Origin: Streptomyces sp. SolWspMP-5a-2
Lineage (GTDB): Bacteria; Actinomycetota; Actinomycetes; Streptomycetales; Streptomycetaceae
Assembly: GCF_900091845.1 (NCBI RefSeq)
Contig: NZ_FMCI01000044.1
Span: 62,001-126,000, forward strand
DNA length: 64,000 nt
Reading direction: 5' to 3'
Shown here: in pieces, positions 4,211 to 52,847 of the stretch
Layout of the letters: the number at the start of each line of letters is the position of its first letter
How positions within the stretch are numbered: position 1 is the stretch's first letter
Notes under the pieces: generated by a model
Seen by the model: the letters and a program-made list of their open reading frames with translations, nothing else
Told to the model about the DNA's origin: nothing
Database searches by the model: none
Made by a program: the position numbers and the translations under genes

Positions 4211-6919
4211 TCAGCCGAGGCCCTCCGGCATGAGGACGCAGCGGCAGGAGGGATGCCCCGGCGGGATGCCGTGCCCGCTGGGGAACTGCTGGCTGAGCGG
4301 GATCGCGCCCGCCGCCTCGTTGTTCATGCACACCGGGCAGACCCGCTCGTCGACCGCGGTGAACCACGACTTCTGCCGGACCCCGTTGGCCCGGTAGGTG
4401 TTGAGGCTCGCAGCGGACACGGCGCGCGCGATCTCGGTGACGGCGACGCGCTCGGCCCAGGCCGGGTCACGCAGCAGGTGCTGGATGGCCAGGGCCGTCG
4501 TGTCCGCGGAGTCGCCGCGGGCGAGGGCGTCGGAGAGCACCTTGGCGAGCCGGTTCATGCGGTTCGCGGCGACGCCCCGGATGACGATGCCGGACTCGTC
4601 CAGGAGCGCCTGCAGCCCGTTGAGGGGCCCGCCGGGGCGCAGGAGGCGGGCGGCGTCCGGGTCGCCGGGACTCCACTTCGACCAGTCGACGGTGCTGTGT
4701 CCGGCGAGGACGGCGAGGGCGGAGCGCTCGCCGATGACGTAGCCGTCGGTCTGGATCTCCCGGACGATCAGCAGGGCCCGGATCAGGCTGATGTTCTGTG
4801 CGGCCAGCCAGCCGACCGCGTCGTGCCAGGGCGTTCCCGGCATGCCCGCGCCGCCGCCTGCGGGCTGTACTCCGCCGAGGTCGGGCTCATCGGCCTTGGC
4901 GGTGATGCCGCGCTGGGCGATCCACCGCTCGGCGAGCGCCCGGGCGTCGAGGGCGCCGCCCATGGCCTTGATGATGCGCGGCTTCCAGTAGGCAGCGGCG
5001 CGCCGGTCCGCCGACCAGCCAGGCCAGTCCCGGACACGGTCAGTATCCGGGGAAGACGGTGCTTTTGGGACGGCACCACCACCGTCCACGGGCTCGGGCT
5101 CGGGCTCGGCGAAGAGGACGATCTCGCCGTTCACGTCGGGGGCGTCCGCCTTCGTGACCACGGTGAAGCGGAACGGCCGGCTCGGCGCGGGGTTGCGGCG
5201 GGCCCACCGGCGGAACGCCGCGAGCTCGACCTTGACGGCCTGCGCCCGCTCCGGGTCGGCAGCGCCCTCCTCGTCGATGTCGGCGTCGTCTTCGTCCGGC
5301 TCGTCGGCCTCCGGGGCTTCGTCGGTGCCCTTGGCCGGCCCGATGACTGCGCCCGGTGCCGCCTGGTCGGCCGCGCCCTCGAGGAAAACGACTCCGCGGG
5401 TGGTGACGAGGACCGGCTTGTCGGCCTCCGGGAAGTCGTACCGGGGCTTCCCCGCACGGTCGCGGGCCTCGTTCAGGGTGAGGCGGCCGGACTTGTAGCG
5501 GGCGTCGTCGACGGCGTCGGCGGCGGCCTCGTCCTCCTCCTCCAGGCCGAGGAACGCAAACTCGAGGTCGCGGTGCATCCGGAGGTGGAGGCGCAGGATG
5601 TCGGTGACGGTGTCCTGGAGCCAGCGGACGGTCGGCAGGGTGCCCTTGCGGCGCTGTACGGACGCCTGCCCTTCGTGCCAGCCCGTGCTGCCGAGGCCGC
5701 CCTGCTCCGTGAAGCCGAGCTCGGCGATGGTGGTGTCGAAGTGGGCCACCATCAGCTTGATCAGGAACAGGTCGTACTCCGGCCGGTACCGCTCGGCGGC
5801 ATCCGACTGCTGCCCCAGCTCCATGCCGGGCGGGAGGATCCGCAACCGGTGGCGCGCCCCGGTCGGCCCGTACGCGTCGTTGAGGAACGTCTCGTATTCC
5901 TTGAGCTGCGCCGGACTCCACCCCGAGGCGCCTGAGTTGGTGACGAGCGCGGACGGGACGGTGCCGTCGGTGTACTCGGCCTTGATCCAGGAGCGGCGGC
6001 GCAGCCACACGTCCAGATCCTCGAGGCACTGCTCGACCGCGCTGTACCCGTACGGGGTGTGGGCGCGGACGTTGCGGCGCCGGTAGACGAGGTGGTCGGA
6101 GCGGTAGCCGTTGAGGACGGCCCCGTCGGCGTCGGTGTCGGCGATGAACTCGCCGCGGGGAAAGCCCCACAGGAGCTGCTGGTAGGCGGGGTTCGGGGGC
6201 TGGGGACGTCCGCCGCGGTGGTCGCGCAGCGGCTTGATCGTGGAGCCGTCCAGCACCTCGAAGGCGTAGAGGTCGCCGCCGAAGGTGCGCCGCGGGTAGA
6301 TCGCGATGGCGTCGAGGACGAAGTGCTCCTCGAGGAGCTTGGTGAGCCAGTCGGTGGTGGTCTCGCCCTGGCCCCGGTCGGGGCGCTCGAGGAAGTCCAT
6401 GACCCGGGTGATCTCGGCGGAGTGCTGCTGGCGCAGGGCCTTGGCGACTTCGTGGTCCGGCTGCTCCGAGCCTTCCTGGGCGCGTTCGATGGCCTGCTCG
6501 GTGAGGCGCACCGTCCAGCCCAGGCTCGCGACTTCGTTCTTGCGGATCTCGATGCAGCGGCGCGGCAGCCCGCCGGCGTCCGCAGCGTCTCGCAGCACCT
6601 TCCACGGCACCAGCCGGTCCGACATGCCCGGCAGGTTGGAGCTGACGGGGTACTCGTTGAGGCGGGGCTCAGGACGGCCGCTGTCCGGGCGCGGCGGGTC
6701 AATCGCGGCCGGGTACAGCGGCACCCCGGGCCCGAACGCGACCGGCGGGTCGGTGCGCGGGAGCGGCGGGAAGACGCCGGTGGTCTGGCCGCCGAGCCGG
6801 TTGGCGGCCATGAGCGCGGCGACCTGCTCGGTGGAGAACGTCACCGCCGAGCTGCTGGCGGCCTTGTTGAGGTGTGCCGGCTGCCGGGAGCGTCCGCGCT
6901 GCTTCTTACCCACGAGCAC
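4211..6919 (-). CDS. Portal protein fused to MuF-type minor head domain
   Basis: A 902-residue protein between the terminase and protease genes. Residues about 90-480 have a phage portal composition and order. An acidic linker containing KAD tripeptides follows. The last 110 residues form a MuF-like minor capsid domain: a TEIARA-type helix, an SWFTAVDERVCPVC segment, then PPGHPSCRC near the end, the typical Cys/His pattern of that family. Separate portal and MuF genes are the commoner arrangement, so this is a fusion. The product forms the dodecameric DNA entry ring at one capsid vertex. The start at ATG 6919 is the first in the open frame. Confidence 0.9.
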   Translation of the reverse strand: MLVGKKQRGRSRQPAHLNKAASSSAVTFSTEQVAALMAANRLGGQTTGVFPPLPRTDPPVAFGPGVPLYPAAIDPPRPDSGRPEPRLNEYPVSSNLPGMSDRLVPWKVLRDAADAGGLPRRCIEIRKNEVASLGWTVRLTEQAIERAQEGSEQPDHEVAKALRQQHSAEITRVMDFLERPDRGQGETTTDWLTKLLEEHFVLDAIAIYPRRTFGGDLYAFEVLDGSTIKPLRDHRGGRPQPPNPAYQQLLWGFPRGEFIADTDADGAVLNGYRSDHLVYRRRNVRAHTPYGYSAVEQCLEDLDVWLRRRSWIKAEYTDGTVPSALVTNSGASGWSPAQLKEYETFLNDAYGPTGARHRLRILPPGMELGQQSDAAERYRPEYDLFLIKLMVAHFDTTIAELGFTEQGGLGSTGWHEGQASVQRRKGTLPTVRWLQDTVTDILRLHLRMHRDLEFAFLGLEEEDEAAADAVDDARYKSGRLTLNEARDRAGKPRYDFPEADKPVLVTTRGVVFLEGAADQAAPGAVIGPAKGTDEAPEADEPDEDDADIDEEGAADPERAQAVKVELAAFRRWARRNPAPSRPFRFTVVTKADAPDVNGEIVLFAEPEPEPVDGGGAVPKAPSSPDTDRVRDWPGWSADRRAAAYWKPRIIKAMGGALDARALAERWIAQRGITAKADEPDLGGVQPAGGGAGMPGTPWHDAVGWLAAQNISLIRALLIVREIQTDGYVIGERSALAVLAGHSTVDWSKWSPGDPDAARLLRPGGPLNGLQALLDESGIVIRGVAANRMNRLAKVLSDALARGDSADTTALAIQHLLRDPAWAERVAVTEIARAVSAASLNTYRANGVRQKSWFTAVDERVCPVCMNNEAAGAIPLSQQFPSGHGIPPGHPSCRCVLMPEGLG

Positions 6920-7195: not shown

Positions 7196-8671
7196 TCAGG
7201 CGGTGGCGTACTCGCGCAGCCACGCCATCTGCTGGTCGATGCCGCCGGGCGGCGTGTAGAAGGCCAAGTTCAGGGCGTCGGCGTCGTCCGGAGACCGGCC
7301 GAGCCTCTTCTTCGTGTCCTCCTTGGGCTCGACGACCGTGCGGCCGGCGCTGTCGAGCGTGTACTTCGGGGCGGTGAGCTGCGTGACGAGCTGCTCGCGG
7401 TCGCTCTCCTCGAGCTCGGAGAGGTCCCAGGACCGGTCCTCGGAGAGCTGCCGGGCGACGCGCCACCAGATCTCCGACCGCAGCCTCGGGAACCGGTCCG
7501 GCTCCTCCGACTTCACCGAGACGTTGACGGGGACGATGACGGCCTGGTGCTCGCCCTTGAGTGCCTTCTCCTGGAGGTTGCCGGCGATGCCCCACCCGAT
7601 CCCGATGGAGTCGATCTTCACGGCGGTCGGCTTGACCTCCTGGATGATCGCCAGGATCCGCGCGGTCGCCTTGACCGGATCCTTCTCCCTAAACCCCCAC
7701 CGGCGCCCGACCACCATGCCGCGCCGCTCGCGGACCACGGTCTCGTCACCGCCGGCACCCATGTCGATGCCGAGTTCGTGCGGGAGCTGCTGGTCGGCCG
7801 GGCGCTTCTCCTCGCGCTCGGCGTGGCAGGCGCGCAGGGCCGAGAGGCGCACGACGCCGTCCTCGGCCTCGTTCGGGAACTCGCCCAAGACCTTGCTGAT
7901 GTAGGTCGGGGAGGACTCGCCGAACTCGTCGCGCATGTCGTCGACGTACTCCTGGCTGACCAGGCTCGGCCGCAGCTCGTCCGGCACCGGCTCCCCGGTG
8001 AAGTTCGGGGTGTCGAACGTGCTGATGTGGATGGTGTGCCAGCGGGAGCCCGGCTGGCACACCCGCGCGAAGTGGGAGCCGGGGTCGTCCGGGTTCCCGA
8101 TCGCGAGGATCCGGCAGTGCTCGCCCGTCGCGATCGACATAGCGGCGGTCCAGAACTGCTTGTTGATGCCGCACGCCTCGTCCAGGATCACCAGGACGTA
8201 CTTGGCGTGGATGCCCTGGAAGGCGTGCGGGTTGTAGTCGGACGGCTTCCGGCCGAACGCGATCAGTTGCTTGTTGAGCTTCCAGTCGGTCTCGTTGACC
8301 CGGCCGATGAACTCCGTGCCGCGCGCTTCGGCCTTCACCCAGGCGGAGTTGATCTCGGACCAGAGGATCGCCTTGACCTGGTCGCCCGTCGGCGCCGTGG
8401 TGACGACCCGGGCCTCGCCGGGCGGGTGCGTGTCGAGCCACCAGCACGTCAACCGGGAAGCACTGAAGCTCTTGCCGCTGCCGTGGCAGGAGTGCACGGC
8501 GGTGAACCGGTTCGTTCTCACGGACTCGGCGATCTCGAGCTGTTTCGACCACAGGTGCTCGCCCAGCTTGTCCTTCGCCCACAGGCCCGGCTGCGTGACG
8601 TAGGACTGGGCCTGCTGCTCCCGCTCGATTCCCTCATCCAGCCAGTCCGCGGCGAGAGCGAGAGCATCCAT
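7196..8671 (-). CDS. terL: Terminase large subunit
   Basis: A 491-residue packaging motor ATPase and nuclease. The Walker A motif is SCHGSGKS at residues 61-68 and the Walker B motif is VILDEA at 161-166. The nuclease domain begins around GIDMGAGGDE (301-310), with further acidic residues at Asp354 and in SPDDADAL near residue 465. The length is normal for the family. It follows the putative small subunit by 15 bases and precedes the portal region. It should bind concatemeric phage DNA, cut it and drive it into proheads through the portal. Confidence 0.95.
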   Translation of the reverse strand: MDALALAADWLDEGIEREQQAQSYVTQPGLWAKDKLGEHLWSKQLEIAESVRTNRFTAVHSCHGSGKSFSASRLTCWWLDTHPPGEARVVTTAPTGDQVKAILWSEINSAWVKAEARGTEFIGRVNETDWKLNKQLIAFGRKPSDYNPHAFQGIHAKYVLVILDEACGINKQFWTAAMSIATGEHCRILAIGNPDDPGSHFARVCQPGSRWHTIHISTFDTPNFTGEPVPDELRPSLVSQEYVDDMRDEFGESSPTYISKVLGEFPNEAEDGVVRLSALRACHAEREEKRPADQQLPHELGIDMGAGGDETVVRERRGMVVGRRWGFREKDPVKATARILAIIQEVKPTAVKIDSIGIGWGIAGNLQEKALKGEHQAVIVPVNVSVKSEEPDRFPRLRSEIWWRVARQLSEDRSWDLSELEESDREQLVTQLTAPKYTLDSAGRTVVEPKEDTKKRLGRSPDDADALNLAFYTPPGGIDQQMAWLREYATA

Positions 8672-19479: not shown

Positions 19480-20211
19480 CTATGCGGCGACGAGTTCGAT
19501 GAACCGGTCGCGGGCAACCCGCCAGTAGGTCGCGGACTGCTCGATCCCGATGAAGCTGCGGCCCTCGAGAAGTGCGGCGGTGCCGGTCGTGCCGCTGCCA
19601 GCGAACGGGTCCAGCACCAGTCCCGGCTCCGGGACGATGCGGACCAACTGCTGCATGACGTCGAGGGGCTTCTGGGTGATGTGCACGCGGGCGTTTCCCC
19701 GCGGCTGGCTGCCGGTGAAGTGGCCAGGCAGGTAGACCGGCTGGTTGCCCGGCACCATCGCGCCGTTGCTGCCCCAGACGATGAACTCGCACTCCTGGCG
19801 CAGGCGTCCGGGCTGGGGGCGGGCGATCGGCTTGTGCCAGACGGCGACGCCGCGCCAGGTGTAACCGGCGGCCTGGAGGGCGTCGGTGGTGGCTGGGAGC
19901 TGGCGCCAGTCCGTGAAGACGAGCGCAGCGCCGCCGGGCCGTGTGAGGCGGTAGGCATGGGCGAGGATGAGGGACAGCCACGCAGTGTAAGAGCGCTGGT
20001 CACGGTTCTCGCCAGTGAAGTCACCGAGGTCGAACCCGTGGTTGCGGCCGCCCTCAGTGAGGTACTTCTCGCGGGCTGTGCGGCTCGTGCGCTCATGCAT
20101 GGTCCGGCCGCCGGAGTTGTAGGGCGGATCGCAGATCACCGCGTCCACCGGGTCTGTGAGCGCGGGCAGGACGGTGAGGGCATCGCCTCGGTGGAGCTGC
20201 CAGGAGGGCAT
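19480..20211 (-). CDS. Site-specific DNA methyltransferase (beta-class, N6-adenine/N4-cytosine type)
   Basis: A 243-residue protein. I start it at ATG 20211; an upstream GTG would add 18 residues. Motif IV is DPPYNSGG at residues 28-35 and motif I is DPFAGSGTTGTAA near residue 207, the C-terminal motif I order of beta-class enzymes. It should use S-adenosylmethionine to methylate an exocyclic amino group in a specific sequence. No partner restriction gene lies nearby, so it looks like an orphan phage methylase protecting phage DNA from host restriction. It is flanked on both sides by strong hairpins and so forms a single-gene unit. Confidence 0.88.
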   Translation of the reverse strand: MPSWQLHRGDALTVLPALTDPVDAVICDPPYNSGGRTMHERTSRTAREKYLTEGGRNHGFDLGDFTGENRDQRSYTAWLSLILAHAYRLTRPGGAALVFTDWRQLPATTDALQAAGYTWRGVAVWHKPIARPQPGRLRQECEFIVWGSNGAMVPGNQPVYLPGHFTGSQPRGNARVHITQKPLDVMQQLVRIVPEPGLVLDPFAGSGTTGTAALLEGRSFIGIEQSATYWRVARDRFIELVAA

Positions 20212-25155: not shown

Positions 25156-27183
25156 TCAGACCAGCGCGGCGATCTTGGGCAGGGTGTAGCCGCGCGCGAT
25201 GAGGTCAGCGGCTTCGCGGCGGCGGTCGCTCGCGGTGGACACGGACACGGAGAGGGCCTCGGCGATCTCGGCGAGTTCGACCGCGTCCGGGAGACCGCCG
25301 GCGGTGAGGATCATCCGGGCGACGCGGCGGGTGTCCCGCTCCCGCGGGGTGAGCCGGGCGGCGTCTTCCGCTTCGACGGCGCGGAGTTCCGTTTCGGCGG
25401 CGCGGCGCCGCGCTTCGACCGCGTCGAGACGCTCCGTCTCGGCAGCGCGCCGGGCTTCAGCGGCGCGCCGCTCAGACACTGCGGCATCCTCGTTGATCTT
25501 GGCGGCGCGCAGCCGTTCTTCAGCGGTCCGCGCCTCCGTTCCGACCGCGCGCCGGTCCGTTTCGGCAGCAGCGGCACGCGCTTCGGCCGCGCACCGTTCC
25601 GCGTCGGCGGCGGCCGTCAGACGGCGGCTCCGCTCCTCGGCGGCCTCCACCGCGGCCTGCTGCGCGGCGGTGACGTCCTGCTCCGTTTCGAGCGCGCGTC
25701 GGCGCGTTTCGACAGCGGCCTTGTGGGCTTCGGCGGCGGCCTTCTCGTTCTGCGCGATCTCCTGCTCGCGGCGCGCGGTTTCGGCCAGGGCGGCGAGGGT
25801 CTCCGCGTCGCTGTCGGCGGCGGCGCGGCGGGCTGCCGCCGCTTCGGCCTCGAGCCGGTCGGCCTCGGCTGTCGCGGCGGCCGCCGCGGCACGGTCCTCG
25901 GCGGCCTGCCGCGCGGCGGCGGCGGCGAGCGCCGACTCGGTGGCCTCCGCTTCCTGGATCGCGACCCGCTCCTCCGCCTCCGCGACCGCGGACGCCTTGG
26001 CGTACGCGGCGCGGGAAGCGACCGAAGCGACCGACTTCCGAGCCTCGGCCCGCTCCTCCGCTTCGGCGACCTCGGCCTGCTTGGCCAGGAGACGGATCCG
26101 GGCGTCGGCCGCGCGGATCTGGGCATCGACTGCCTCCTGCTCAGCGGTCTCCTGCTGCTGCGCCGTCTGGTCTGCCTCGGCCTGGCGGGCCTGCTCCGGG
26201 ATCGCGAGCGCCTCGGCGACCGTGAGCCCGTAGCGCGCCATCGTGATCGGCAGCAGCGCCTCCTTCGGCGCGGACTTCCAGCCGCGCGGGTACCGCTCCC
26301 CCTTGGGGTAGAGGCGGTCCAGCTCCGCTCGGTAGATGAGCTGGTCACAGCGCCTGTCTACCGCTTCCTGGTAGGAGCTGATGCGCAGCAGGACCATGTC
26401 CCGGAACAGCAGGTAGGCGCCGAGCGGGTTCAGGAGCCAGCGCTCGCGCGGGATGCTTTCCCGCGCCTCCTCACCGGCCTCGATGGCCTCGAGGCGGGTC
26501 ACCTGCACGATGACCTTCCGCGCGGCCTCGACGGCGATGACGAACATCACCGGGATCACCGCGTGCATGCCGACACCGACCGGGTCCGCGGTCAGCGACC
26601 GTCCGCCGGACGCCGCGTTGAAGATGATCGTCGCGGCGGTGAAGGCGTGGGCGGTGAGGCGTACGAGGGGCCAGCGGATCCGGCGGCGGGTGAGGACGAG
26701 GTCGAGGGCGTAGAGGACGACGATGCCGACGTCGACGCCGATCGGGAAGACAGCGGCGAAGTCGCCGAAGCCTCGTTTTTCGGCCATGCGGACGAGGGCC
26801 CGGTAGGAGCCGTAGAAGCCGATCCCGGCGAGCCCGAGGCCGCCGAGGAGTGCGAGGAGGTTGAGGCCGTGGTGGGCTGCCCTCGGAACAGATTCCTGCG
26901 CGCTCGGAACGCCCGGGCGCGCGCCCGGAACGGCAACCGGTGCGCTCGGAACGGCCCGGGTACGCGTCTTCGCACTGCGGGTGCGGCGCTGCGCGAAGGG
27001 CAGCCACGGACGGCGCTGGACGTCTGCGCTCGGAACGCCCGGGCGCGCGCTCGGAATGGTGGGCGGTGCGCTCGGAACGCCCGGGCGCGCGGTCGGAATG
27101 GTGGGCGGTGCGCTCGGAACGGCGGCGGGTGTGCCCGGGGCGGGGCGGCGGCGCCGGGTCACGAAGCGCGGCAGGAGGGGCAT
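25156..27183 (-). CDS. DUF2637-type membrane protein with long coiled-coil and C-terminal HTH
   Basis: A 675-residue protein starting at ATG 27183. Residues 1-107 are Pro/Ala-rich with a duplicated 14-residue unit. Residues 108-228 hold four hydrophobic helices typical of DUF2637 (GIGFYGSYRALVRMAEKRGF, FPIGVDVGIVVLYALD). Residues about 335-600 are an Ala/Glu/Arg coiled-coil full of REAE-like heptads. The last 55 residues (LAEIAEALSVSVSTASDRRRE) look like a helix-turn-helix. DUF2637 proteins are known from Streptomyces plasmids, integrative elements and phages, mostly uncharacterised. A membrane-tethered DNA- or partner-binding scaffold is a reasonable inference. Confidence 0.8.
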   Translation of the reverse strand: MPLLPRFVTRRRRPAPGTPAAVPSAPPTIPTARPGVPSAPPTIPSARPGVPSADVQRRPWLPFAQRRTRSAKTRTRAVPSAPVAVPGARPGVPSAQESVPRAAHHGLNLLALLGGLGLAGIGFYGSYRALVRMAEKRGFGDFAAVFPIGVDVGIVVLYALDLVLTRRRIRWPLVRLTAHAFTAATIIFNAASGGRSLTADPVGVGMHAVIPVMFVIAVEAARKVIVQVTRLEAIEAGEEARESIPRERWLLNPLGAYLLFRDMVLLRISSYQEAVDRRCDQLIYRAELDRLYPKGERYPRGWKSAPKEALLPITMARYGLTVAEALAIPEQARQAEADQTAQQQETAEQEAVDAQIRAADARIRLLAKQAEVAEAEERAEARKSVASVASRAAYAKASAVAEAEERVAIQEAEATESALAAAAARQAAEDRAAAAAATAEADRLEAEAAAARRAAADSDAETLAALAETARREQEIAQNEKAAAEAHKAAVETRRRALETEQDVTAAQQAAVEAAEERSRRLTAAADAERCAAEARAAAAETDRRAVGTEARTAEERLRAAKINEDAAVSERRAAEARRAAETERLDAVEARRRAAETELRAVEAEDAARLTPRERDTRRVARMILTAGGLPDAVELAEIAEALSVSVSTASDRRREAADLIARGYTLPKIAALV
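27025..27120. repeat. 42-bp tandem repeat inside the DUF2637 gene
   Basis: Two nearly identical 42-bp copies (27025-27066 and 27067-27108; one base differs) and a 12-base start of a third encode a Pro-rich 14-residue unit. A degenerate further copy starts near 26899. The unit keeps the reading frame and lies in the disordered N-terminal part of the protein. Confidence 0.8.
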
Positions 27184-27269
27184 CAGCGGGGGCCTTCCAG
27201 GAGCGAACCGAGCGGCTTCGGGCGGGCAGACCGACGCCCTCGGAACGGGGCGTCGGCCGGTGGGGCGGG

Positions 27270-27623
27270 TCAGTAGCGGTCGCCGACGTGGGTCCGGCGC
27301 CAACGGGAGCTGCTGACGCAGACCGTGGTGCCGGTGTCGAGCAGGAGCTGCCAGCACTCGGCGGTGCGGTGCGGTACACGGCGGGTTCCGGCGGGTACCT
27401 GGCGGCACGTGCGGACGGTTGTGGTCTTCCGCAGGCGGTGCTTGGTCTGGGTGGTGCACACGCTGCGGTTGCGGCGTTCGCTGGTCCACGTGGTGTGCGC
27501 CGCGGTGTGCGTCTTCTCGACGACCCGGCCGTGCGCCGGGCTGCTGGAGTGGCCCGGCGTGCAAGCGGTGAGCGCGACGGCGAGCACGACCGCGGCCGCC
27601 GCGCCCCGCGCGGCCCTGTTCAT
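27270..27623 (-). CDS. Small lipoprotein
   Basis: A 117-residue protein starting at ATG 27623. A signal peptide (RGAAAAVVLAVALTAC) ends in the lipobox LTAC at residues 18-21. The mature part is basic with four or five cysteines (RSVCTTQTKHRLRKTTTVRTC, ECWQLLL, VCVSSSRW), so disulphides outside the cell are likely. It overlaps the upstream gene by ATGA and precedes the DUF2637 gene in the transcript. A surface-exposed role in exclusion or transfer is possible but unproven. Confidence 0.7.
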   Translation of the reverse strand: MNRAARGAAAAVVLAVALTACTPGHSSSPAHGRVVEKTHTAAHTTWTSERRNRSVCTTQTKHRLRKTTTVRTCRQVPAGTRRVPHRTAECWQLLLDTGTTVCVSSSRWRRTHVGDRY

Positions 27624-27994
27624 TCCTGCCCTCCGGAGGGCAGGAACTTGGTCGCGGTCGCATGGACCGTCAGCCCGTCGACGACGCTGCGGACATCGAC
27701 GTAAAGCGAACTGGAGCTGAAGGGCGTCTCCGCGACGGGGGCGCCCCAGTGCTCCGCCCACTGCCGGACGTCCTCCGGGCTCTCACAGAGGATCTGGATC
27801 CAGCTCGAGTCGCCGGGCTTCTCTCGGCTCCCGAAGTGGACGTCGACCGAGGAGGGAAGGGGCAGATGAGTGGGGAGCGAGGGGATGAGGGCGCGCGCTC
27901 GCTGGCCGAAGCGGAACGCGGCAGCCTCGACCTGGTCGACGCCGTGCTGGAGCTGCGACTCGATTGCGGCCCATCCGGGTCCGGGGCTGGTCAC
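27620..27994 (-). CDS. Hypothetical protein
   Basis: A 124-residue protein with GTG start 27994 overlapping the upstream stop as GTGA. An N-terminal amphipathic helix leads into a compact alpha/beta segment (SSVDVHFGSREKPGDSSWIQ, EDVRQWAEHWG, LYVDVRSVVDGLTVHATATK). It is coupled to the lipoprotein gene. The family is not recognised. Confidence 0.6.
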   Translation of the reverse strand: MTSPGPGWAAIESQLQHGVDQVEAAAFRFGQRARALIPSLPTHLPLPSSVDVHFGSREKPGDSSWIQILCESPEDVRQWAEHWGAPVAETPFSSSSLYVDVRSVVDGLTVHATATKFLPSGGQE

Positions 27995-28566
27995 AGGTCA
28001 CCGTCCAGCTCGGCGCGCTGGTCGGCGGCGGCGAGGGTCTCACCGGCGCGGGCCAGGGCGTTGGAGACGCAGGTGGGGGTGCAGTACCAGCGGTAGACGT
28101 CGTCGGTGCCGGCGACCAGGAGCCGGGTCCAGCCGAACATGTCGACGGGGTCGAAGTCGTGGTCGGTCCCGCAGCCGCGGGTGGGGCAGACGGCGGCGAG
28201 GTCGCGGAGCTCCACGTCGAGGAGCGACGCGAGCCGGACCCGCTCCTCCGGCAGGATCTCGACGTTCACAGCGATGCCGGCGTCGCTGGCGCACCTGATG
28301 ACGGCCCTTTCTGTGAGCGCGGTCCCGTCCGGGTAGTCGACGCTGCCCGCCCAGTCGAGGTTGAGGGCGACGGGTGTGGAGGACTGCGCCCACTGGCGCA
28401 GATGGAGGACAGCGTCGCCGCGGCCGGGGTCAAGCTCCCAGTCCTGCGGGAGGCTCTCGATCTGGTTGGCGGCGTCGGAGAGGACGCCGAGCCGAACGGC
28501 GCTGCCGAGGATCTTCCGCAGGGCCCGGTGACGGGCGGTGAAGAGGTGTTCGGGCGTGTGCTTCAC
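27991..28566 (-). CDS. Hypothetical protein downstream of the glycosyltransferase
   Basis: A 191-residue protein starting at ATG 28566, 22 bases after the glycosyltransferase stop. An alpha/beta N-terminal domain (VALNLDWAGSVDYPDGTALTERAV, VNVEILPEERVRLASLL) is followed by a Cys-containing part (VCPTRGCGTDHDFD, YCTPTCVSNAL) that may be a zinc site. The same alpha/beta pattern is present in weaker form in the next gene. No function can be given. Confidence 0.6.
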   Translation of the reverse strand: MKHTPEHLFTARHRALRKILGSAVRLGVLSDAANQIESLPQDWELDPGRGDAVLHLRQWAQSSTPVALNLDWAGSVDYPDGTALTERAVIRCASDAGIAVNVEILPEERVRLASLLDVELRDLAAVCPTRGCGTDHDFDPVDMFGWTRLLVAGTDDVYRWYCTPTCVSNALARAGETLAAADQRAELDGDL

Positions 28567-28588: not shown

Positions 28589-29953
28589 TCAGCGTCGCCG
28601 GAGAGCGAGCTGGAGGGTCGTTTCGTTGTCGGCGTGGGGGTCCAGGAGCTTCGCGACGGGCGGCAGTTGCTGGGTTGCGTCAGGGGCCGGGCGCGGGGCG
28701 GGGAGGGTGGGGCCGGCGTGAGCGTTGCCGCGGGTGACCCATCCGCGGTCGCGGAGCTTGGCGACGGCCCAGTACTTCGCCGGGTAGATCACGGCGACCT
28801 TGACGATGAGCTCGACCGGGGTGGCCCACAGCCACGTGAGCAGCTTGGTGGTCCAGTGCATGTGCGGCCGGCGGATCATGTACTGGGCGGTCTCGGCGTA
28901 CCGGATGGCGAGGTAAGAGCCGAAGGCGATGGCCACGTACTCGGGGGCGGTGTGGAAGAAGACGCCGGACGCGGTCATGGTGAGCAGGACCGGCAGCATG
29001 ATCCACTGGGTGACGGCGAGGAGGGGGAAGAGGAGCTTCTTCCACTCCAGGTTGATCACCGCGAACGGCAGAGCCTGCCAGGACGACTTGCCCCAGCGGA
29101 GACGCTGTTTGAAGAGGCCGCCCAGACTGTCGGGCATCGCGGAGTGGACGACGGCGTCGTTGACGACGACGACGTCTCCCCGCAGCAGCGCATACATGGT
29201 GAGGCGGCGGTCGTCGCCGTTGGTGCCGGAGGACACGTAGTCGGCCAAGTTGTCGAAGACCACGTGGGCCCGGTAGAGGGCCAGAGCGCCGGAGGTGGTC
29301 TCCACGGCACCCAGGACGGACCGGGACGAGCGGATCATCAGGCAGGACGTGCCGATGTTCAGGTCCGAGATCCGGGTGATCCAGTTGTCGGCGAAGTTCC
29401 GGGTCAGGATCAGGCCCGTCGCCGCCATGACGCGCCGCTTCGACATGGCGCGCATGAGGTGCTCGAGGGCGTCGTCCCCGGGCACGGAGTCGGAGTCGAC
29501 GGTGAGGATGAAGTCCCAGTCCTGGCGGCGCAGCGTCTGCAGGACGCCGGCCTGCGCGCAGCGCTTACCGCCGTTGGGTTGCCGGTGCCAGCGGATCTTC
29601 GGGTGTGGAAACGGGCGGACCGGGGCCTTTGCGGAGCCGTCGTCCATGACGTGGATCTCGGTGACGGGGTAGGTCTGCCGCAGCAGCGCGTCGAGCGCGG
29701 CGCGCAGCAGCTCGGGTTCTTCCTCGAAGGCGGGGACGATCGCGACGACCCGCCCGGTCGCGATGCGGCGCCGCGACCAGTGCGAGTTGACCTCGAGGGA
29801 GGAGATGTAGAAGGTGATGAGCCCTGCGTCGAACAAGTACAGGGCGGTCAGGAAGTGCCGGTCGCTGTCGCCGATGGCGAGGTGGTAGGTGGCCGCCCAG
29901 GCGGCCACCCCCACCGCGCCAAAGACGCAGGCGGCGAGCCTGCTGTACCTCAT
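28589..29953 (-). CDS. Hyaluronan-synthase-like family 2 glycosyltransferase
   Basis: A 454-residue processive membrane glycosyltransferase. Two N-terminal membrane helices (about 5-27 and 36-54) precede the GT2 catalytic domain: DD at 104-105, DSD at 153-155, GDD at 246-248 within TNGDDRRLT, and QRLRW at 283-287. These are the D, DxD, (T/E)D and QxxRW motifs of the hyaluronan/chitin/cellulose synthase group, and GDDR plus RWGKS recall class I hyaluronan synthases. Three or four C-terminal helices (305-395) would form the export channel. It should polymerise a UDP-sugar and extrude the chain. The adjacent UDP-sugar dehydrogenase suggests a uronic-acid-containing polymer. The exact product cannot be read from sequence. 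Confidence 0.88.
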   Translation of the reverse strand: MRYSRLAACVFGAVGVAAWAATYHLAIGDSDRHFLTALYLFDAGLITFYISSLEVNSHWSRRRIATGRVVAIVPAFEEEPELLRAALDALLRQTYPVTEIHVMDDGSAKAPVRPFPHPKIRWHRQPNGGKRCAQAGVLQTLRRQDWDFILTVDSDSVPGDDALEHLMRAMSKRRVMAATGLILTRNFADNWITRISDLNIGTSCLMIRSSRSVLGAVETTSGALALYRAHVVFDNLADYVSSGTNGDDRRLTMYALLRGDVVVVNDAVVHSAMPDSLGGLFKQRLRWGKSSWQALPFAVINLEWKKLLFPLLAVTQWIMLPVLLTMTASGVFFHTAPEYVAIAFGSYLAIRYAETAQYMIRRPHMHWTTKLLTWLWATPVELIVKVAVIYPAKYWAVAKLRDRGWVTRGNAHAGPTLPAPRPAPDATQQLPPVAKLLDPHADNETTLQLALRRR

Positions 29954-30111
29954 CAGCCCGCGTACCTCTTTCCGCGGTTCGCGGCGCGGTAGATCAACGC
30001 ACCGCCCACGACGAGCGCGATGATCGCGGCAATGGTCCAGCTGAATGCCGCGGTGCCTCCGAAGAGCGCGACGGACGCGCCGGTCTTCGCGAGGGTTCCT
30101 CTCCCGTACAT
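29953..30111 (-). CDS. Single-helix membrane peptide between synthase and dehydrogenase
   Basis: A 52-residue protein starting at ATG 30111; its stop shares one base with the synthase start (TGATG). One hydrophobic helix (FSWTIAAIIALVVGGALIYRA) is followed by a basic tail (RAANRGKRYAG). Its position between the two glycan genes and the translational coupling suggest a small partner of the synthase. It is too short for a family assignment. Confidence 0.65.
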   Translation of the reverse strand: MYGRGTLAKTGASVALFGGTAAFSWTIAAIIALVVGGALIYRAANRGKRYAG

Positions 30112-30138
30112 GACCTGTTTCTCCTGTGAGTTGGGCGG

Positions 30139-31389
30139 CTAGAGCCGCTCGATGTGCGGGGCGACGGGCATGACGCCCCGCGTGTCCAGCACGTAGGCCG
30201 ACCCGTCGGCGACGCGCTGGAGGTCGAACTCGTCGTGCGGTGTGAGCAGCACGACGGCGTCGTAGTGGCTCAGGTCGTCCGGCACCCGCGAGCCGGTGAT
30301 CCCCACGTAGTTGGGCATCGGGCTCGGGTCGATGACGGTGACGAGCGCTCCCTTCGCAGTGAGGCGCCTGATGACCTCGAGCGCCGGGGACTGGCGCATG
30401 TCGGCGGTGCCGGGCTTGTAGGCCGCGCCGAGCGCGAGGATCCGGGCTCCGAACATGCCCAGGTGGTGGCGCTGGTTGATGCCGTCCTGAAGGCGCTGGA
30501 CCACGTAGTCGGGCTGGACGCTGTTGATGTCCTGGGCGAGCTCGACGAGGCGGACGGCGTGGCCGTGGCGGGTGCGGGCGTGGTGGGTGAGGTAGACGGG
30601 ATCAACCGGCAGGCAGTGCCCCCCGACGCCCGGCCCCGGCAGGAACTTGGCGAACCCGAACGGCTTGGTGCCCGCCAAGTCGAGGGTGCGCCAGACGTCG
30701 GCGCCCAGGACGTGCGCGAGCTGGGCGAGTTCGTTGACGAGGGCGATGTTGACGTGCCGGAACGTGTTCTCGAAGACCTTCGCGAGCTCGGCTTCCTCGA
30801 GGGTCTCGGCGAGGACGGTGCATTGGGTGATCCCGGCGTAGAAACGCTCGGCCAGGTCGCGGCAGCCGCGGGTGAGTCCGGACACGATCTTCGGGGTGTT
30901 CCCGAACGTCCACGCCGGATTGCCGGGGTCGATCCGCTCGGGGCTGAAGCCGACGTGGAAGTCCTCACCGGCGGTCCATCCGGTGGCCTTCTCCAGGATC
31001 GGGACGACGATGTCGCGGGTGGTGCCCGGGTACGTCGTGGACTCCAGCACGACCAGCGCACCGGCCTGCAGGTGTGCGGCGAGGGTGCGGGTCGCGTTCT
31101 CGACGAAGGACAGATCGGGCTGGCCGTTGGCGAGGGGCGTGGGCACGGTGATGACGGCGACGTCGTAGTCGGCGAGCTCTGCCGGGTGGCGGGTGGGCTC
31201 GTAGCGGCCGGTCAGCAGAGCTCCGGCCAGCGCCTGGTCGTCGACGTCGTCGACGTACGACTTGCCGTTCATGAGGTGGAGCAGTCGCTCCTCGGCGGGT
31301 TCGAACCCGATGACGGTGTGGCCGGCGGTGACGGCGGCCATGGCGAGGGGCAGGCCGACGTAGCCCTGCCCCATCACGGCGATCTTCAC
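30139..31389 (-). CDS. UDP-glucose/UDP-N-acetylhexosamine 6-dehydrogenase
   Basis: A 416-residue NAD-dependent dehydrogenase that oxidises C6 of a UDP-hexose to a uronic acid. The NAD-binding GQGYVG is at residues 7-12, ESTTYPGTT at 116-124, and the catalytic Cys259 lies in GVGGHCLPVDP. The FSPERIDPGN segment (148-157) is closer to the WbpA/VipA-type UDP-N-acetylglucosamine dehydrogenases than to simple UDP-glucose dehydrogenases, so either substrate is possible. Length and domain order (Rossmann, helical middle, C-terminal UDP-binding) are normal. With the synthase and membrane peptide it forms a compact glycan cassette inside the phage element. Confidence 0.92.
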   Translation of the reverse strand: MKIAVMGQGYVGLPLAMAAVTAGHTVIGFEPAEERLLHLMNGKSYVDDVDDQALAGALLTGRYEPTRHPAELADYDVAVITVPTPLANGQPDLSFVENATRTLAAHLQAGALVVLESTTYPGTTRDIVVPILEKATGWTAGEDFHVGFSPERIDPGNPAWTFGNTPKIVSGLTRGCRDLAERFYAGITQCTVLAETLEEAELAKVFENTFRHVNIALVNELAQLAHVLGADVWRTLDLAGTKPFGFAKFLPGPGVGGHCLPVDPVYLTHHARTRHGHAVRLVELAQDINSVQPDYVVQRLQDGINQRHHLGMFGARILALGAAYKPGTADMRQSPALEVIRRLTAKGALVTVIDPSPMPNYVGITGSRVPDDLSHYDAVVLLTPHDEFDLQRVADGSAYVLDTRGVMPVAPHIERL

Positions 31390-33374: not shown

Positions 33375-34178
33375 TCAGGCAGCGGGTGCGCCCTGTGCCC
33401 GCTCCGTGGCCAGCGCCTGGTGCCGGTCGTTGCTGCGTCGGGCCCCATCAGGGCCTACTGCAGCAGTCAGGGCCCGGCATCGCAGTTCCGCCCACAGTGC
33501 GACGGCAGCCGGGTCGGCGGCACGCCACGCGGGTACGGTGCTGGCCCAAGCGCTGGCGCCGGCCGCAGTGTGGCCGTCCTCGATGAGCCGGATGGCGGTT
33601 TCGGCGGTGTCGGCCCAGGCGGGGCCGCGTGCGGCGAGCGCCCAGTCGACCAGCCAGATACGGGTGCTGTCGGCGAGGAGGTTGTGGGGGTTGATGTCGC
33701 CGTGGACGAGGTGGGTTCCGTGCAACTGCTCAAGCTCCCCTGGCGTGGCGTGTGCGGCCCACTGGTCGGACCAGGAGGGGAGGTGAGGTGTGCTGGGGGC
33801 CGGCAGCTCGGCGGCGGTGAGGAGGTCGGCGACGGCGGCGAGGTGCGGGGAGCCGGGGGTGAGGTCGGCGTGGAGGCCGTCGACGGCGTGGAAGGCGATC
33901 AGGTCCCAGTCCCAGGAGGAGCAGGAGGAGGTGGTGCGCCACAGGAGTGCGGGCGCCGCGGGGCCGGTGTGGGGTGCGACGGCGGCTTCTCGGTCATGGC
34001 CGGCGGAGTGCCCCCGGGTGGCCTTCACGAAGAGTGCTCCGCTGCCGGTGTCGAGGACGGCTGCAGCGTGGCAGTTGAACCCGGCGGTGATGTCGCGTAC
34101 GGCGGTGATGGTCCCGTGCCGGGTCGTCACGGCGTCGTGGATGTGGGCCGGGAGCCCGGCCCACGGGATGTGGGTCAC
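33375..34178 (-). CDS. Aminoglycoside-phosphotransferase-like kinase
   Basis: A 267-residue protein. GTG 34178 is preferred because it overlaps the preceding stop as GTGA; an in-frame ATG 34196 would add six residues. The catalytic loop is HGDINPHNLL near residue 165 and the metal-binding Asp lies in IWLVDWALA near 180, as in the APH/choline kinase superfamily. The N-lobe has FVKATRGH with a candidate ATP-binding Lys. The substrate is unknown: an antibiotic, an amino sugar or a small metabolite are all possible. It looks like cargo rather than a core phage gene. Confidence 0.8.
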   Translation of the reverse strand: MTHIPWAGLPAHIHDAVTTRHGTITAVRDITAGFNCHAAAVLDTGSGALFVKATRGHSAGHDREAAVAPHTGPAAPALLWRTTSSCSSWDWDLIAFHAVDGLHADLTPGSPHLAAVADLLTAAELPAPSTPHLPSWSDQWAAHATPGELEQLHGTHLVHGDINPHNLLADSTRIWLVDWALAARGPAWADTAETAIRLIEDGHTAAGASAWASTVPAWRAADPAAVALWAELRCRALTAAVGPDGARRSNDRHQALATERAQGAPAA

Positions 34179-50654: not shown

Positions 50655-51256
50655 ACCTTCACCTCGACCCTCTGGGGCTTGTACTGGGCGTCGACCCAGG
50701 AAGCGGCCTGGTCGAGCGAGGCCATGAGGTTGCGGGCCCGGGCCCAGCGCATCTCTCCGTCGAGGTGCTGGCCCTTCGGGTCCGCGACGGCGCGCGCCTG
50801 CCAGGGGCTCGTCTGCAGGGGGTCCCAGTGCCGTGTGATGGTCCCGGCGACGTCCTCCACGCAGACGGGCGGCGTGGGCGTCCGCGTGACGAACCACTCC
50901 CGCGGCTCGGACCGCATCCCCGGCAGCGTGAGCTCGCCGGGCCACAGCCACACGTCGAGGTGTCGCCGGGCCGGGTGGCCGTAGCCGTACTGAGCGGTGG
51001 TGGTGGTCTGGGTCCCGACGTTCTCGCTGGTGAAAACGTGGACGGCGCCGCATCCCCGGCACACGAACCGGATGGTGGTGCGCGGGAAGCGGGTCGCGTG
51101 GGTGCACTCCTCGCTCTCGCACCCGTGGGGCGCGTCGGAGAGGCGGCCGCGGCGCCCGAGGTCGAACCGCAGGCCCTCCTCCCACAGCCGTTCCTCGCAG
51201 GGCTCGTTGTGGGCGAGTCGTGTCCACCCCAGGTAGAGGTCCCGGACGATGTTCAT
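50651..51256 (-). CDS. Hypothetical actinophage-type protein
   Basis: A 201-residue protein starting at ATG 51256. Features include CESEECTHATRFPRTTIRFV with CRGCGAVHVF (zinc site, residues 46-75) and a beta-rich domain (LDVWLWPGELTLPG, REWFVTRT). The C-terminal helix is acidic. The same layout is familiar in Streptomyces phage early regions, without an assigned function. Confidence 0.62.
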   Translation of the reverse strand: MNIVRDLYLGWTRLAHNEPCEERLWEEGLRFDLGRRGRLSDAPHGCESEECTHATRFPRTTIRFVCRGCGAVHVFTSENVGTQTTTTAQYGYGHPARRHLDVWLWPGELTLPGMRSEPREWFVTRTPTPPVCVEDVAGTITRHWDPLQTSPWQARAVADPKGQHLDGEMRWARARNLMASLDQAASWVDAQYKPQRVEVKV

Positions 51257-52242
51257 TCCTCACCGCCAGCGGGCGCGGCCGGCTGCTCGGCGGCCGGTGC
51301 CGTCCGGGCCGCGTCGACGGGGGTCAGGTGGCCGTGCGCCACCACGATCGAGGTCAGGGGGTACAGCGCGCTGGCGCCGCCGCGCACCGTGAGGAGGGGC
51401 ATGCCGTTCTCCTGGCGCTGGCCGAGGTAGAGCCAGGTGATGCCGCGGCTGTCGAGCTGTCCTCGGGAGAGGTCGTACATCCGGCCCCAGAGGAAGTACG
51501 GTTCGCCAGCGGCCAGTTCGGCGTCCCGCAGCAGGCGTGGGACGTCGTGCGCGACGAGCCGGGTCTCCACGCCGTCGATCGAGCCGAGAGCCATCTGGGC
51601 GTACCCGGCGGTCCAGGTCCGCAGTTCGAGCGGTGCCCCGATCGCCGTCAGCCAGTACGTCCAGTCGTCCAGCGAGGCGGCCCTGATGGCGACTCCGACG
51701 CGCTCGCGGTCCGGACTGATCTCCGTTACTCCGGCCTGCTCGCCGTGCTGCTCTCGGAGGCGGCTGGCCAGGGTGACCGCGCGCGCCTGCGCGGCCGTCC
51801 AGGCGGCGGGCCGGTCCACCGGCGTCGCTGCGACCGGGGTGATCGGGACGGCGGTGAAGGGCGGGCGGGGGCGGCCGATCTGGACGACCCGTGCGCCGCG
51901 GACCGGCGATGTGTCCGGCGAGGGGCTGGGGAACGCGTGCTGCGACTCGGGCTCGCCGTCGTCGCAGAGCAGCCTCTTGCGCTGTAGCGCGGTGACGACT
52001 CGGACGGCCGCATCGCGGGGGTAGCCGCAGTCGTCGATGATCGTGTCGACTGCGAGCTGGAACGTCGGGGGCAGGTTCTTCCGTGCCTCGACGTGGGTGC
52101 GCAGTTGCTCGAGGGCGATGGCGCCGCCGGGGCCGACGATTCGGCCCTGGGCCTCAAGGTCGGCGACGAAAGCGGCGGCCAAGGCGCCCAGGCGCTCGCG
52201 GAGTTCCTGCTCGATCAGGGCAGAGGAGGGAATGTTCGTCAC
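51253..52242 (-). CDS. Hypothetical protein downstream of the sigma factor
   Basis: A 329-residue protein with GTG start 52242 overlapping the sigma-factor stop as GTGA. Helical N-terminal 100 residues (SALIEQELRERLGALAAAF, FQLAVDTIIDDCGYPRDAAVRVV), a Pro-rich linker, then two alpha/beta stretches (WTYWLTAIGAPLELRTWTAG, ITWLYLGQRQENGMPLLTV). I tentatively place it near the BN159_2729-type proteins of Streptomyces elements. Role unknown; its coupling to the sigma factor suggests a regulatory partner. Confidence 0.62.
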   Translation of the reverse strand: MTNIPSSALIEQELRERLGALAAAFVADLEAQGRIVGPGGAIALEQLRTHVEARKNLPPTFQLAVDTIIDDCGYPRDAAVRVVTALQRKRLLCDDGEPESQHAFPSPSPDTSPVRGARVVQIGRPRPPFTAVPITPVAATPVDRPAAWTAAQARAVTLASRLREQHGEQAGVTEISPDRERVGVAIRAASLDDWTYWLTAIGAPLELRTWTAGYAQMALGSIDGVETRLVAHDVPRLLRDAELAAGEPYFLWGRMYDLSRGQLDSRGITWLYLGQRQENGMPLLTVRGGASALYPLTSIVVAHGHLTPVDAARTAPAAEQPAAPAGGEE

Positions 52243-52847
52243 GCCGCCTCCAAGTACGCGTTGCGGAGCTGGTGGTTGTGCTGGAGGGTGCGCAGCGCCC
52301 GGTACACGCAGGTCTTCACGGCACCCGGGGTCATCCCCAGCAGGGATGCGGTCTCACCGACCGACATCTCGTTGAGGTAGCGGCAGATGAGCACCTGCCG
52401 CTGGGTCTGCGTGAGGTGGGTCAGCGCAGTCCGCAAGGCCGTCGACGTCTCGGCGGCCATGAGCCCGTGGTCGAGCGGCGGGGTGTCGGCCCAGAGCGAA
52501 TCCAGGTCCCGCATGTCGGCGACGAACCGGAGCTTCTGGGTGGGCCAGGCCTTGAAGTGGTCGGCGATGATCCTTCGGGCGATCGTGTAGAACCAGGACA
52601 GGATCGACTTGCCGGTCCACGTGAAGGTGTGCAGGCGCCGGAGTCCTCGCACGAACGTCTCGGCGGTGATGTCCCCGGCCCTCTGCCAGTTCTCACCGAG
52701 CAGGCGCTTGGCGAAGGCGGTGACCGCAGCGTGGTGCATCCGGTACAGCTCGCCGTACGCGTCCGCGTCGCCTTGCTGCGCCCGGGCGACAAGGGCCGGT
52801 TCTCTCGTGTCGTCGCACGGTGGCGCGACGTTAGCCTCAGTGATCAA
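52239..52847 (-). CDS. ECF-type RNA polymerase sigma factor
   Basis: A 202-residue protein with TTG start 52847 eight bases after GGAG. Region 2 spans about residues 20-95 (ALVARAQQGDADAYGELYRM, TAETFVRGLRRL, SWFYTIARRIIADHF) and region 4 about 135-190 (LTQTQRQVLICRYLNEMSVG, TPGAVKTCVYRALRTL). No anti-sigma gene is adjacent. Heading the long leftward operon, it could direct host polymerase to phage promoters or allow host signals to trigger the element. Target promoters are unknown. Confidence 0.88.
   Translation of the reverse strand: MITEANVAPPCDDTREPALVARAQQGDADAYGELYRMHHAAVTAFAKRLLGENWQRAGDITAETFVRGLRRLHTFTWTGKSILSWFYTIARRIIADHFKAWPTQKLRFVADMRDLDSLWADTPPLDHGLMAAETSTALRTALTHLTQTQRQVLICRYLNEMSVGETASLLGMTPGAVKTCVYRALRTLQHNHQLRNAYLEAA

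Follow-up and report, generated by a model that had tools for sequence, protein, structure and literature searches.

A hyaluronan synthase-like glycosyltransferase and a putative LAXTG sorting peptide encoded together in an apparent Streptomyces prophage

Gram-positive wall glycopolymers are known to be delivered to peptidoglycan by way of lipid carriers and LCP ligases, and the synthases PgaC/IcaA work with a small transmembrane (TM) partner, PgaD/IcaD, in which we know of no sorting signal. The hyaluronan synthases (HAS), represented in the PDB by the Chlorella virus enzyme (CvHAS) and Xenopus HAS1 (7sp6-9, 8snc, 8smn), carry DxD, GDD and QxxRW motifs and a W-x-T-R gating loop. The LAXTG motif is cleaved by Streptomyces class E sortases, and SrtE1 and SrtE2 use it for the chaplins (PMC5148588). 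Here, we analyze a stretch of 64,000 nucleotides from Streptomyces sp. SolWspMP-5a-2 (NZ_FMCI01000044.1, positions 62,001 to 126,000; hereafter, the window), in which an apparent prophage carries a cassette of three genes, encoding a nucleotide-sugar 6-dehydrogenase (DH), a 52-residue peptide with the layout of a minimal sorting signal, and a processive-type glycosyltransferase of family 2 (GT2) with a predicted HAS fold. Each component, the HAS-fold synthase, the UDP-uronate dehydrogenase and the LAXTG signal, is known by itself; for their combination in one three-gene unit, which phages carry as well as other replicons, no paper turned up in the PMC open-access literature, which does not cover subscription papers and preprints. 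The same search returned no paper on a LAXTG mini-peptide with a GT2, in agreement with a preliminary description of this DNA, in which the module was regarded as undescribed for Streptomyces prophages. The features of the cassette are the following.

30139-31389, minus strand: DH, 416 aa (Pfam PF03721/PF00984/PF03720, NCBIfam and PDB matches; UDP-N-acetylhexosamine-type motif ENTFRHVNIALVNE; catalytic GVGGHC)
29953-30111, minus strand: mini sorting-signal peptide, 52 aa, composed of MYGRGT, LAKTG, a TM segment and a basic tail (pattern scan; 35 non-redundant relatives that immediately precede GT2 genes)
30079-30093, minus strand: LAKTG motif of the class E sortase type, peptide residues 7-11 (sequence; LAxTG in relatives)
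29989-30045, minus strand: TM segment predicted at about residues 23-41 of the peptide (hydropathy), with the basic tail RAANRGKRYAG after it
28589-29953, minus strand: HAS-fold processive-type GT2, 454 aa, with two N-terminal TM helices, a GT-A domain and C-terminal TM helices (Pfam GT2, AlphaFold2 and PDB matches)

All three reading frames are intact and lie where the preliminary description had placed them. The gap between DH and the peptide is 27 nt, and the stop codon of the peptide overlaps the start codon of GT2 (TGATG). In Pfam, 28589-29953 matched GT2 families, and DH contained all three UDPG_MGDP_dh domains.

The LAXTG peptide and its linkage to the synthase gene

The peptide, MYGRGTLAKTGASVALFGGTAAFSWTIAAIIALVVGGALIYRAANRGKRYAG, contains LAKTG, a hydrophobic helix and a basic tail, in that order; only six residues precede the motif, and there is neither an N-terminal signal peptide nor a secreted passenger domain. 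Judged by this layout, it is a minimal class E sorting signal for the host LAXTG sortase. The preliminary description had recorded a coupled membrane peptide, and both the membrane helix and the coupling stand; the sorting signal formed by LAKTG, the helix and the basic tail had been overlooked. The host genome contains eight sortase-domain genes, and one of them, which matches the solved SrtE1 structure 5CUW at 1.9e-105, identifies an SrtE1 orthologue by sequence. The same succession of LAXTG, hydrophobic helix and basic tail is present in the chaplins ChpA-C, which are LAXTG substrates of class E sortases. In contrast to the chaplins, the mini-peptides have no passenger domain and no evident conventional signal peptide, and they were adjacent to GT2 in the loci examined, which were themselves found through GT2. 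The family NF058583 (LAXTG_small_WW, 'LAXTG motif-containing small protein') is similar in size and layout; the match of the window peptide is weak, at 22 bits, and this does not make it a member by the cut-off of 65, while the name of the model gives no function and the open-access search returned no paper on it. When used as a probe for further mini-peptides, NF058583 matched mostly inside long open frames, presumably at the C-termini of larger proteins, and is therefore a poor probe for them.

The mini sorting signal was defined as [LI][APVGQ]x[TS]G, a hydrophobic stretch and a net basic tail within a small open reading frame (ORF). An ORF of this kind was found directly upstream of GT2 in 21 of the 29 IMG/VR contigs that carry a GT2 relative, although the 21 cases are not all independent, because several contigs are near-copies of one another. 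In comparison, the remaining 1.17 Mb strand-bases of the viral loci gave four matches, only one of them with the strict letters L-A-x-T-G, and 0.0024 matches were expected per 700-nt interval. This background count led us to reject a chance occurrence of LAXTG next to GT2. Over all the fetched loci, 78 peptides were collected and reduced to 35 non-redundant ones (<85% identity), with LAxTG in 34 and LPVTG in one; since this set was selected by a permissive pattern, the presence of a motif reflects the selection, but the prevalence of LAxTG does not. Start codons were picked according to the ribosome-site score, with a small weight on how far they lay from the motif; on this basis, these 35 peptides had 4 to 24 residues before the motif (median 6), and Tyr or Ser was found within the first four residues in every one. 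The peptide with LPVTG in place of LAXTG comes from the viral contig L103 (9569-9784; 47% GC), and this fits, but does not prove, a host with a different sortase.

Fold of the synthase and the likely sugar

The GT2 contains the motifs DDGS (residues 104-107), DSD (153-155), GDDR (246-249), QRLRW (283-287) and WVTR (405-408). A model generated by AlphaFold2 from an alignment of 25 sequences had a predicted local distance difference test score (pLDDT) of 80.3 and a predicted template modelling score (pTM) of 0.81, and it showed the HAS-type channel architecture, with N- and C-terminal TM helices around the GT2 fold. When this model was compared with the PDB by Foldseek, the top 13 matches were all HAS, and the alignment with CvHAS (8snc; VIA-align) gave a Z of 35.4 and a root-mean-square deviation of 2.5 Å over 359 residues. 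The next-best structural matches were an archaeal mannosyltransferase (Z 27.5), Chs1 (26.0) and BcsA (25.3). Moreover, DSD, DD and RW were invariant in the 25-sequence alignment, and DSD, the DD of GDD, RW and W-x-x-R were near-universal across 49 GT2 relatives. The motifs and the predicted fold support the processive-type GT2 synthase, with DxD, GDDR, QxxRW and membrane helices, that had been proposed in the preliminary description. The best sequence-profile matches were NodC (TIGR04242, 117 bits against a cut-off of 550) and PgaC/IcaA (TIGR03937, 68 bits against a cut-off of 422), both far below the cut-off, and the window GT2 differs from these closest profiles by its linked uronate-type DH.

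The window GT2 thus shares with HAS the full-length predicted fold and the motifs given above, but its identity to them is 16-19%. The acceptor-pocket residue Cys267 of CvHAS aligns with Thr219, and this position was T or P in 11 of 11 sequences of the window clade, whereas C was found in eight of nine sequences from a clade that mostly lacks the peptide. In the gating loop, W405 and R408 are kept, and the Gly is Val406 in the window and variable in the clade; this Gly is essential in CvHAS, where G455A inactivates the enzyme (PMC11750622). Because neither the acceptor-pocket Cys nor the gating-loop Gly is kept, we call GT2 HAS-like and not HAS, that is, a processive-type synthase whose modelled structure has the HAS fold. 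Also unlike HAS, it is coupled to a sorting-signal peptide, and its partner DH is not of the UDP-glucose type. Four viral contigs with GT2 relatives (L104, L105, L109 and L116) had no TM peptide upstream, and L104, their representative in the tree, belongs to the clade in which the HAS-type Cys is retained.

The DH matched the nucleotide sugar dehydrogenase model TIGR03026 with 380.7 bits (cut-off 189.8), and its scores with other NCBIfam profiles were 257 bits for UDPMaNacDH_Arch, 207 for TviB and 200 for WecC, versus 129 for TuaD. The best PDB match was 4r16, annotated as UDP-ManNAcA dehydrogenase. Neither a substrate loop of the NAFLATKISFxNE type nor a best score to the UDP-glucose dehydrogenase models, both expected of a UDP-glucose 6-dehydrogenase, was found, and DH carries ENTFRHVNIALVNE instead. 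These comparisons suggest that DH resembles enzymes for UDP-N-acetylhexosamine (UDP-HexNAc), namely the dehydrogenases of UDP-ManNAc and UDP-GlcNAc, more than those for UDP-glucose; a paper on the residues that set this specificity was sought and not found. The UDP-hexose 6-dehydrogenase named in the preliminary description keeps its catalytic Cys, within GVGGHC, while its scores lie nearer to UDP-HexNAc than to UDP-glucose enzymes. In contrast, the DH of the plasmid locus L010 scored 445 bits with TuaD, and in both L010 and L151, two plasmid loci of the type found in phage Kromp (see below), DH is of the UDP-glucose type, so the linked sugar probably differs between loci.

These data bear on the version of the preliminary description, according to which the lysogen secretes, and is coated by, a hyaluronan-type polymer with uronic acid, either free or in the manner of a capsule, and the peptide is incidental. 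The HAS fold and the linked UDP-sugar dehydrogenase are in line with it, and so are L010 and L151, where the peptide-GT2 pair is accompanied by a TuaD-like UDP-glucose dehydrogenase. However, the linkage of peptide and GT2 lies far above background, and both the replacement of Cys267 and of the gating-loop Gly and the HexNAc-type scores of DH point elsewhere; we consider this version unlikely. For the same changes in GT2 and the same type of DH, hyaluronan itself would be an unlikely product, and the polymer would not be expected to be hyaluronidase-sensitive.

Distribution of the cassette and a model of polymer anchoring

In the sequenced Streptomyces phage Kromp, gp78, a LASTG mini-peptide, overlaps gp79, a GT2, and this is the same pair as in the window, annotated there only as a hypothetical protein and a glycosyltransferase; the two GT2 are 31% identical. 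The viral contigs L096 and L107 have 16 and 17 of 23 tested Kromp neighbours in common. The order DH-peptide-GT2 was observed in the viral contigs L006 and L088, and the latter shares with the window phage DH, GT2 and seven downstream genes, the cassette being 43-64% identical. A profile search of genome contigs, which was built from a narrower GT2 alignment and did not sample the Kromp clade, detected window-type GT2 in 17 Streptomyces species, two Enterococcus and one Sphaerisporangium bin, and the Streptomyces loci contained DH and a LAXTG peptide in the order DH-peptide-GT2. Among 199 drawn Streptomyces genomes, seven, including that of the window, hold a GT2 with at least 41% identity. 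The peptide-GT2 pair was also present in plasmids of S. coeruleorubidus, NBC_01361, S. canus and Pseudonocardia (pBCI2-2), with DH downstream in those of NBC_01361 and S. canus. The preliminary description had left it open whether the three genes recur together or lie scattered, and this distribution indicates that a linked unit recurs in Streptomyces genomes and viral contigs.

We propose that GT2 synthesizes an acidic polymer linked to the peptide, and that the host sortase E attaches this polymer to peptidoglycan, altering the lysogen surface; we give this reading a probability of about 0.4. DH would supply a UDP-uronate, with N-acetylhexosaminuronate favoured over glucuronate by sequence, and GT2 would polymerize the uronate, perhaps alternating with a second host UDP-sugar, and export the chain by way of its own channel in the membrane. 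The peptide would lie beside the synthase, with the short N-terminus outside and the basic tail inside, and serve as a membrane anchor or as the carrier of the chain. The host sortase E would then cut LAKTG between T and G and transfer the N-terminal stub with its glycan to peptidoglycan; we infer the carrier step because a stub of 10 residues would otherwise be pointless on the wall. The lysogen would gain a covalently wall-bound acidic polymer and a changed surface, with reduced adsorption of other phages as the most likely consequence. If true, attachment by sortase through a minimal peptide would be a route distinct from lipid carriers and LCP ligases, the cassette would be a compact phage means of rewriting the host surface, and a small-protein family named in databases by its motif alone would acquire a function. 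More tentative is a general form of this proposal, a sortase-dependent glycan anchoring in actinobacterial chromosomes, plasmids and phages, where a HAS-fold synthase would build its polymer on, or pass it to, a LAXTG carrier peptide that a class E sortase links to peptidoglycan, and by which prophages would remodel the lysogen surface.

Several points weigh against this proposal. HAS enzymes need no protein primer, and an N-terminus located outside would be hard to prime from a cytosolic active site. No dehydrogenase was detected in the Kromp record, and many related viral loci lack one inside the fetched flank. In Enterococcus (L119 and L134) and in the lactobacillales genome L159, DH, a small TM peptide and GT2 keep this order with no LPXTG. 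The sorting-signal label occurs in both deep GT2 clades and requires at least six forced gains or losses on the tree, in which several branches are long. Finally, a scan limited to sigma-70 promoters, one of several Streptomyces promoter types, showed none specific to the cassette.

The peptides of Enterococcus and L159 have only a TM helix and a YRxxTRKxxY-like tail, and since they keep the gene order without LPXTG, the peptide serves for more than sorting, probably by contacting the synthase. In the GT2 tree, the two Enterococcus sequences form the sister group of the window clade (support 98/94), so transfer between phyla is likely. In another genome, L160, DH was found with a shorter GT2 frame and no visible peptide. 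In the main rival explanation, the peptide would be a small synthase subunit similar to PgaD/IcaD; its TM helix and basic tail would dock on GT2 and be needed for polymerization or export, the polymer would be released or loosely held, and LAXTG would be an add-on that lets sortase process the complex or localize it at sites of wall growth. The helix and the YRxxTRKxxY tail, kept in the lactobacillales peptides at the same position between DH and GT2, agree with a subunit, as do the start/stop overlaps or very short gaps, which suggest co-translation, and the GT2 of Actinomyces oris, whose extra N-terminal TM segment in the absence of a separate peptide fits a fusion. Nevertheless, LAXTG is present in nearly all the actinobacterial peptides while the other N-terminal residues vary, a sorting motif would be needless for a plain subunit, and a sortase gene neighbours one locus; overall, we regard the subunit as somewhat less likely than the anchoring proposed above. 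That locus, in the Pseudonocardia plasmid pBCI2-2 (L150, 4774-7542), combines a LAYTG peptide and GT2 with an adjacent, divergently oriented class E sortase gene (NF033747, 204.8 bits), and is possibly a self-contained anchoring locus. With one plasmid sortase and four host ORF extractions as queries, two of these being the same ORF, no other large locus had a nearby sortase gene. In the A. oris plasmid (L149, 4305-7176), a polysaccharide deacetylase gene adjoins the GT2, which looks like a peptide fusion, and this neighbour is a hint that the polymer is N-acetylated.

Among chromosomal relatives, the closest is L118, whose GT2 is 82% identical to that of the window; it is a stand-alone operon with flanks that look like ordinary host genes. 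This would fit neutral cargo, a host surface operon captured by the prophage with no benefit for the phage. However, the reading frames of the cassette are intact, and it is kept in the related L088, at 43-64% identity and with matching neighbours. The ratios of non-synonymous to synonymous substitution rates (dN/dS), calculated pairwise among the window, L006 and L012 (NG86), were 0.21-0.26 for GT2, 0.16-0.33 for the peptide and 0.40-0.64 for DH; these point estimates come from DNA with a GC content near 70% and carry no test for departure from 1, and the peptide spans only 52 codons. With GT2 estimates below 0.3, we regard neutral cargo as improbable. Even less probable is that the peptide acts as a decoy that occupies the host SrtE and, in the course of infection, keeps chaplins or other surface proteins from being anchored, with GT2 merely co-transcribed. 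The peptide is indeed barely more than a sortase substrate and is phage-encoded, but it is tied to GT2 and not to other phage genes, and a decoy makes little sense in chromosomes, plasmids or the stand-alone operon of L118, where the pair is also found. In PADLOC-DB, no match was obtained for any of the three cassette genes, and a known anti-phage defence system was rejected as a candidate.

The prophage and its other genes

The window lies within contig C259 of a Streptomyces genome of 399 contigs and 8.95 Mb. The element that carries the cassette is apparently a complete prophage of about 74 kb, and the IMG/VR copy of the same provirus, with 74,095 bp, has coordinates that place its end near position 52847 of the window. 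Genes for an integrase, endolysin, tape measure, portal, protease and terminase were identified around the cassette, bearing out the phage setting of the preliminary description, and the called genes are mostly leftward. Neither a tRNA nor a direct-repeat attachment (att) site was found at the ends, and the exact limits are therefore not proven. The principal features are the following.

1-52847, minus strand: part of the prophage inside the window, which continues to window coordinate about -21247
C259:40753-41928, outside the window: integrase
7196-8671, minus strand: terminase large subunit (phrog_2, E 4.7e-36)
4211-6913, minus strand: portal protein fused to a head-morphogenesis domain (phrog_2662, E 1.2e-87)

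At the right end of the prophage (51253-52847), a gene for an ECF-type sigma factor is followed downstream by a partner gene, and these may control the prophage. A gene for an N4/N6 DNA methyltransferase is located at 19480-20211 (PADLOC type II methyltransferase match, 8e-58), and upstream of the cassette, at 33375-34178, there is a gene for an APH-like kinase with a weak Pfam APH match. Adjoining the cassette, a DUF2637 protein is encoded at 25156-27663, with an uncertain start codon and a match to phrog_32569, which is among the phage families of unknown function. The genes at 27991-28566 and 27270-27623, downstream of GT2, have counterparts after GT2 in the viral contig L088, with 54% identity each, and may be part of the same phage block.

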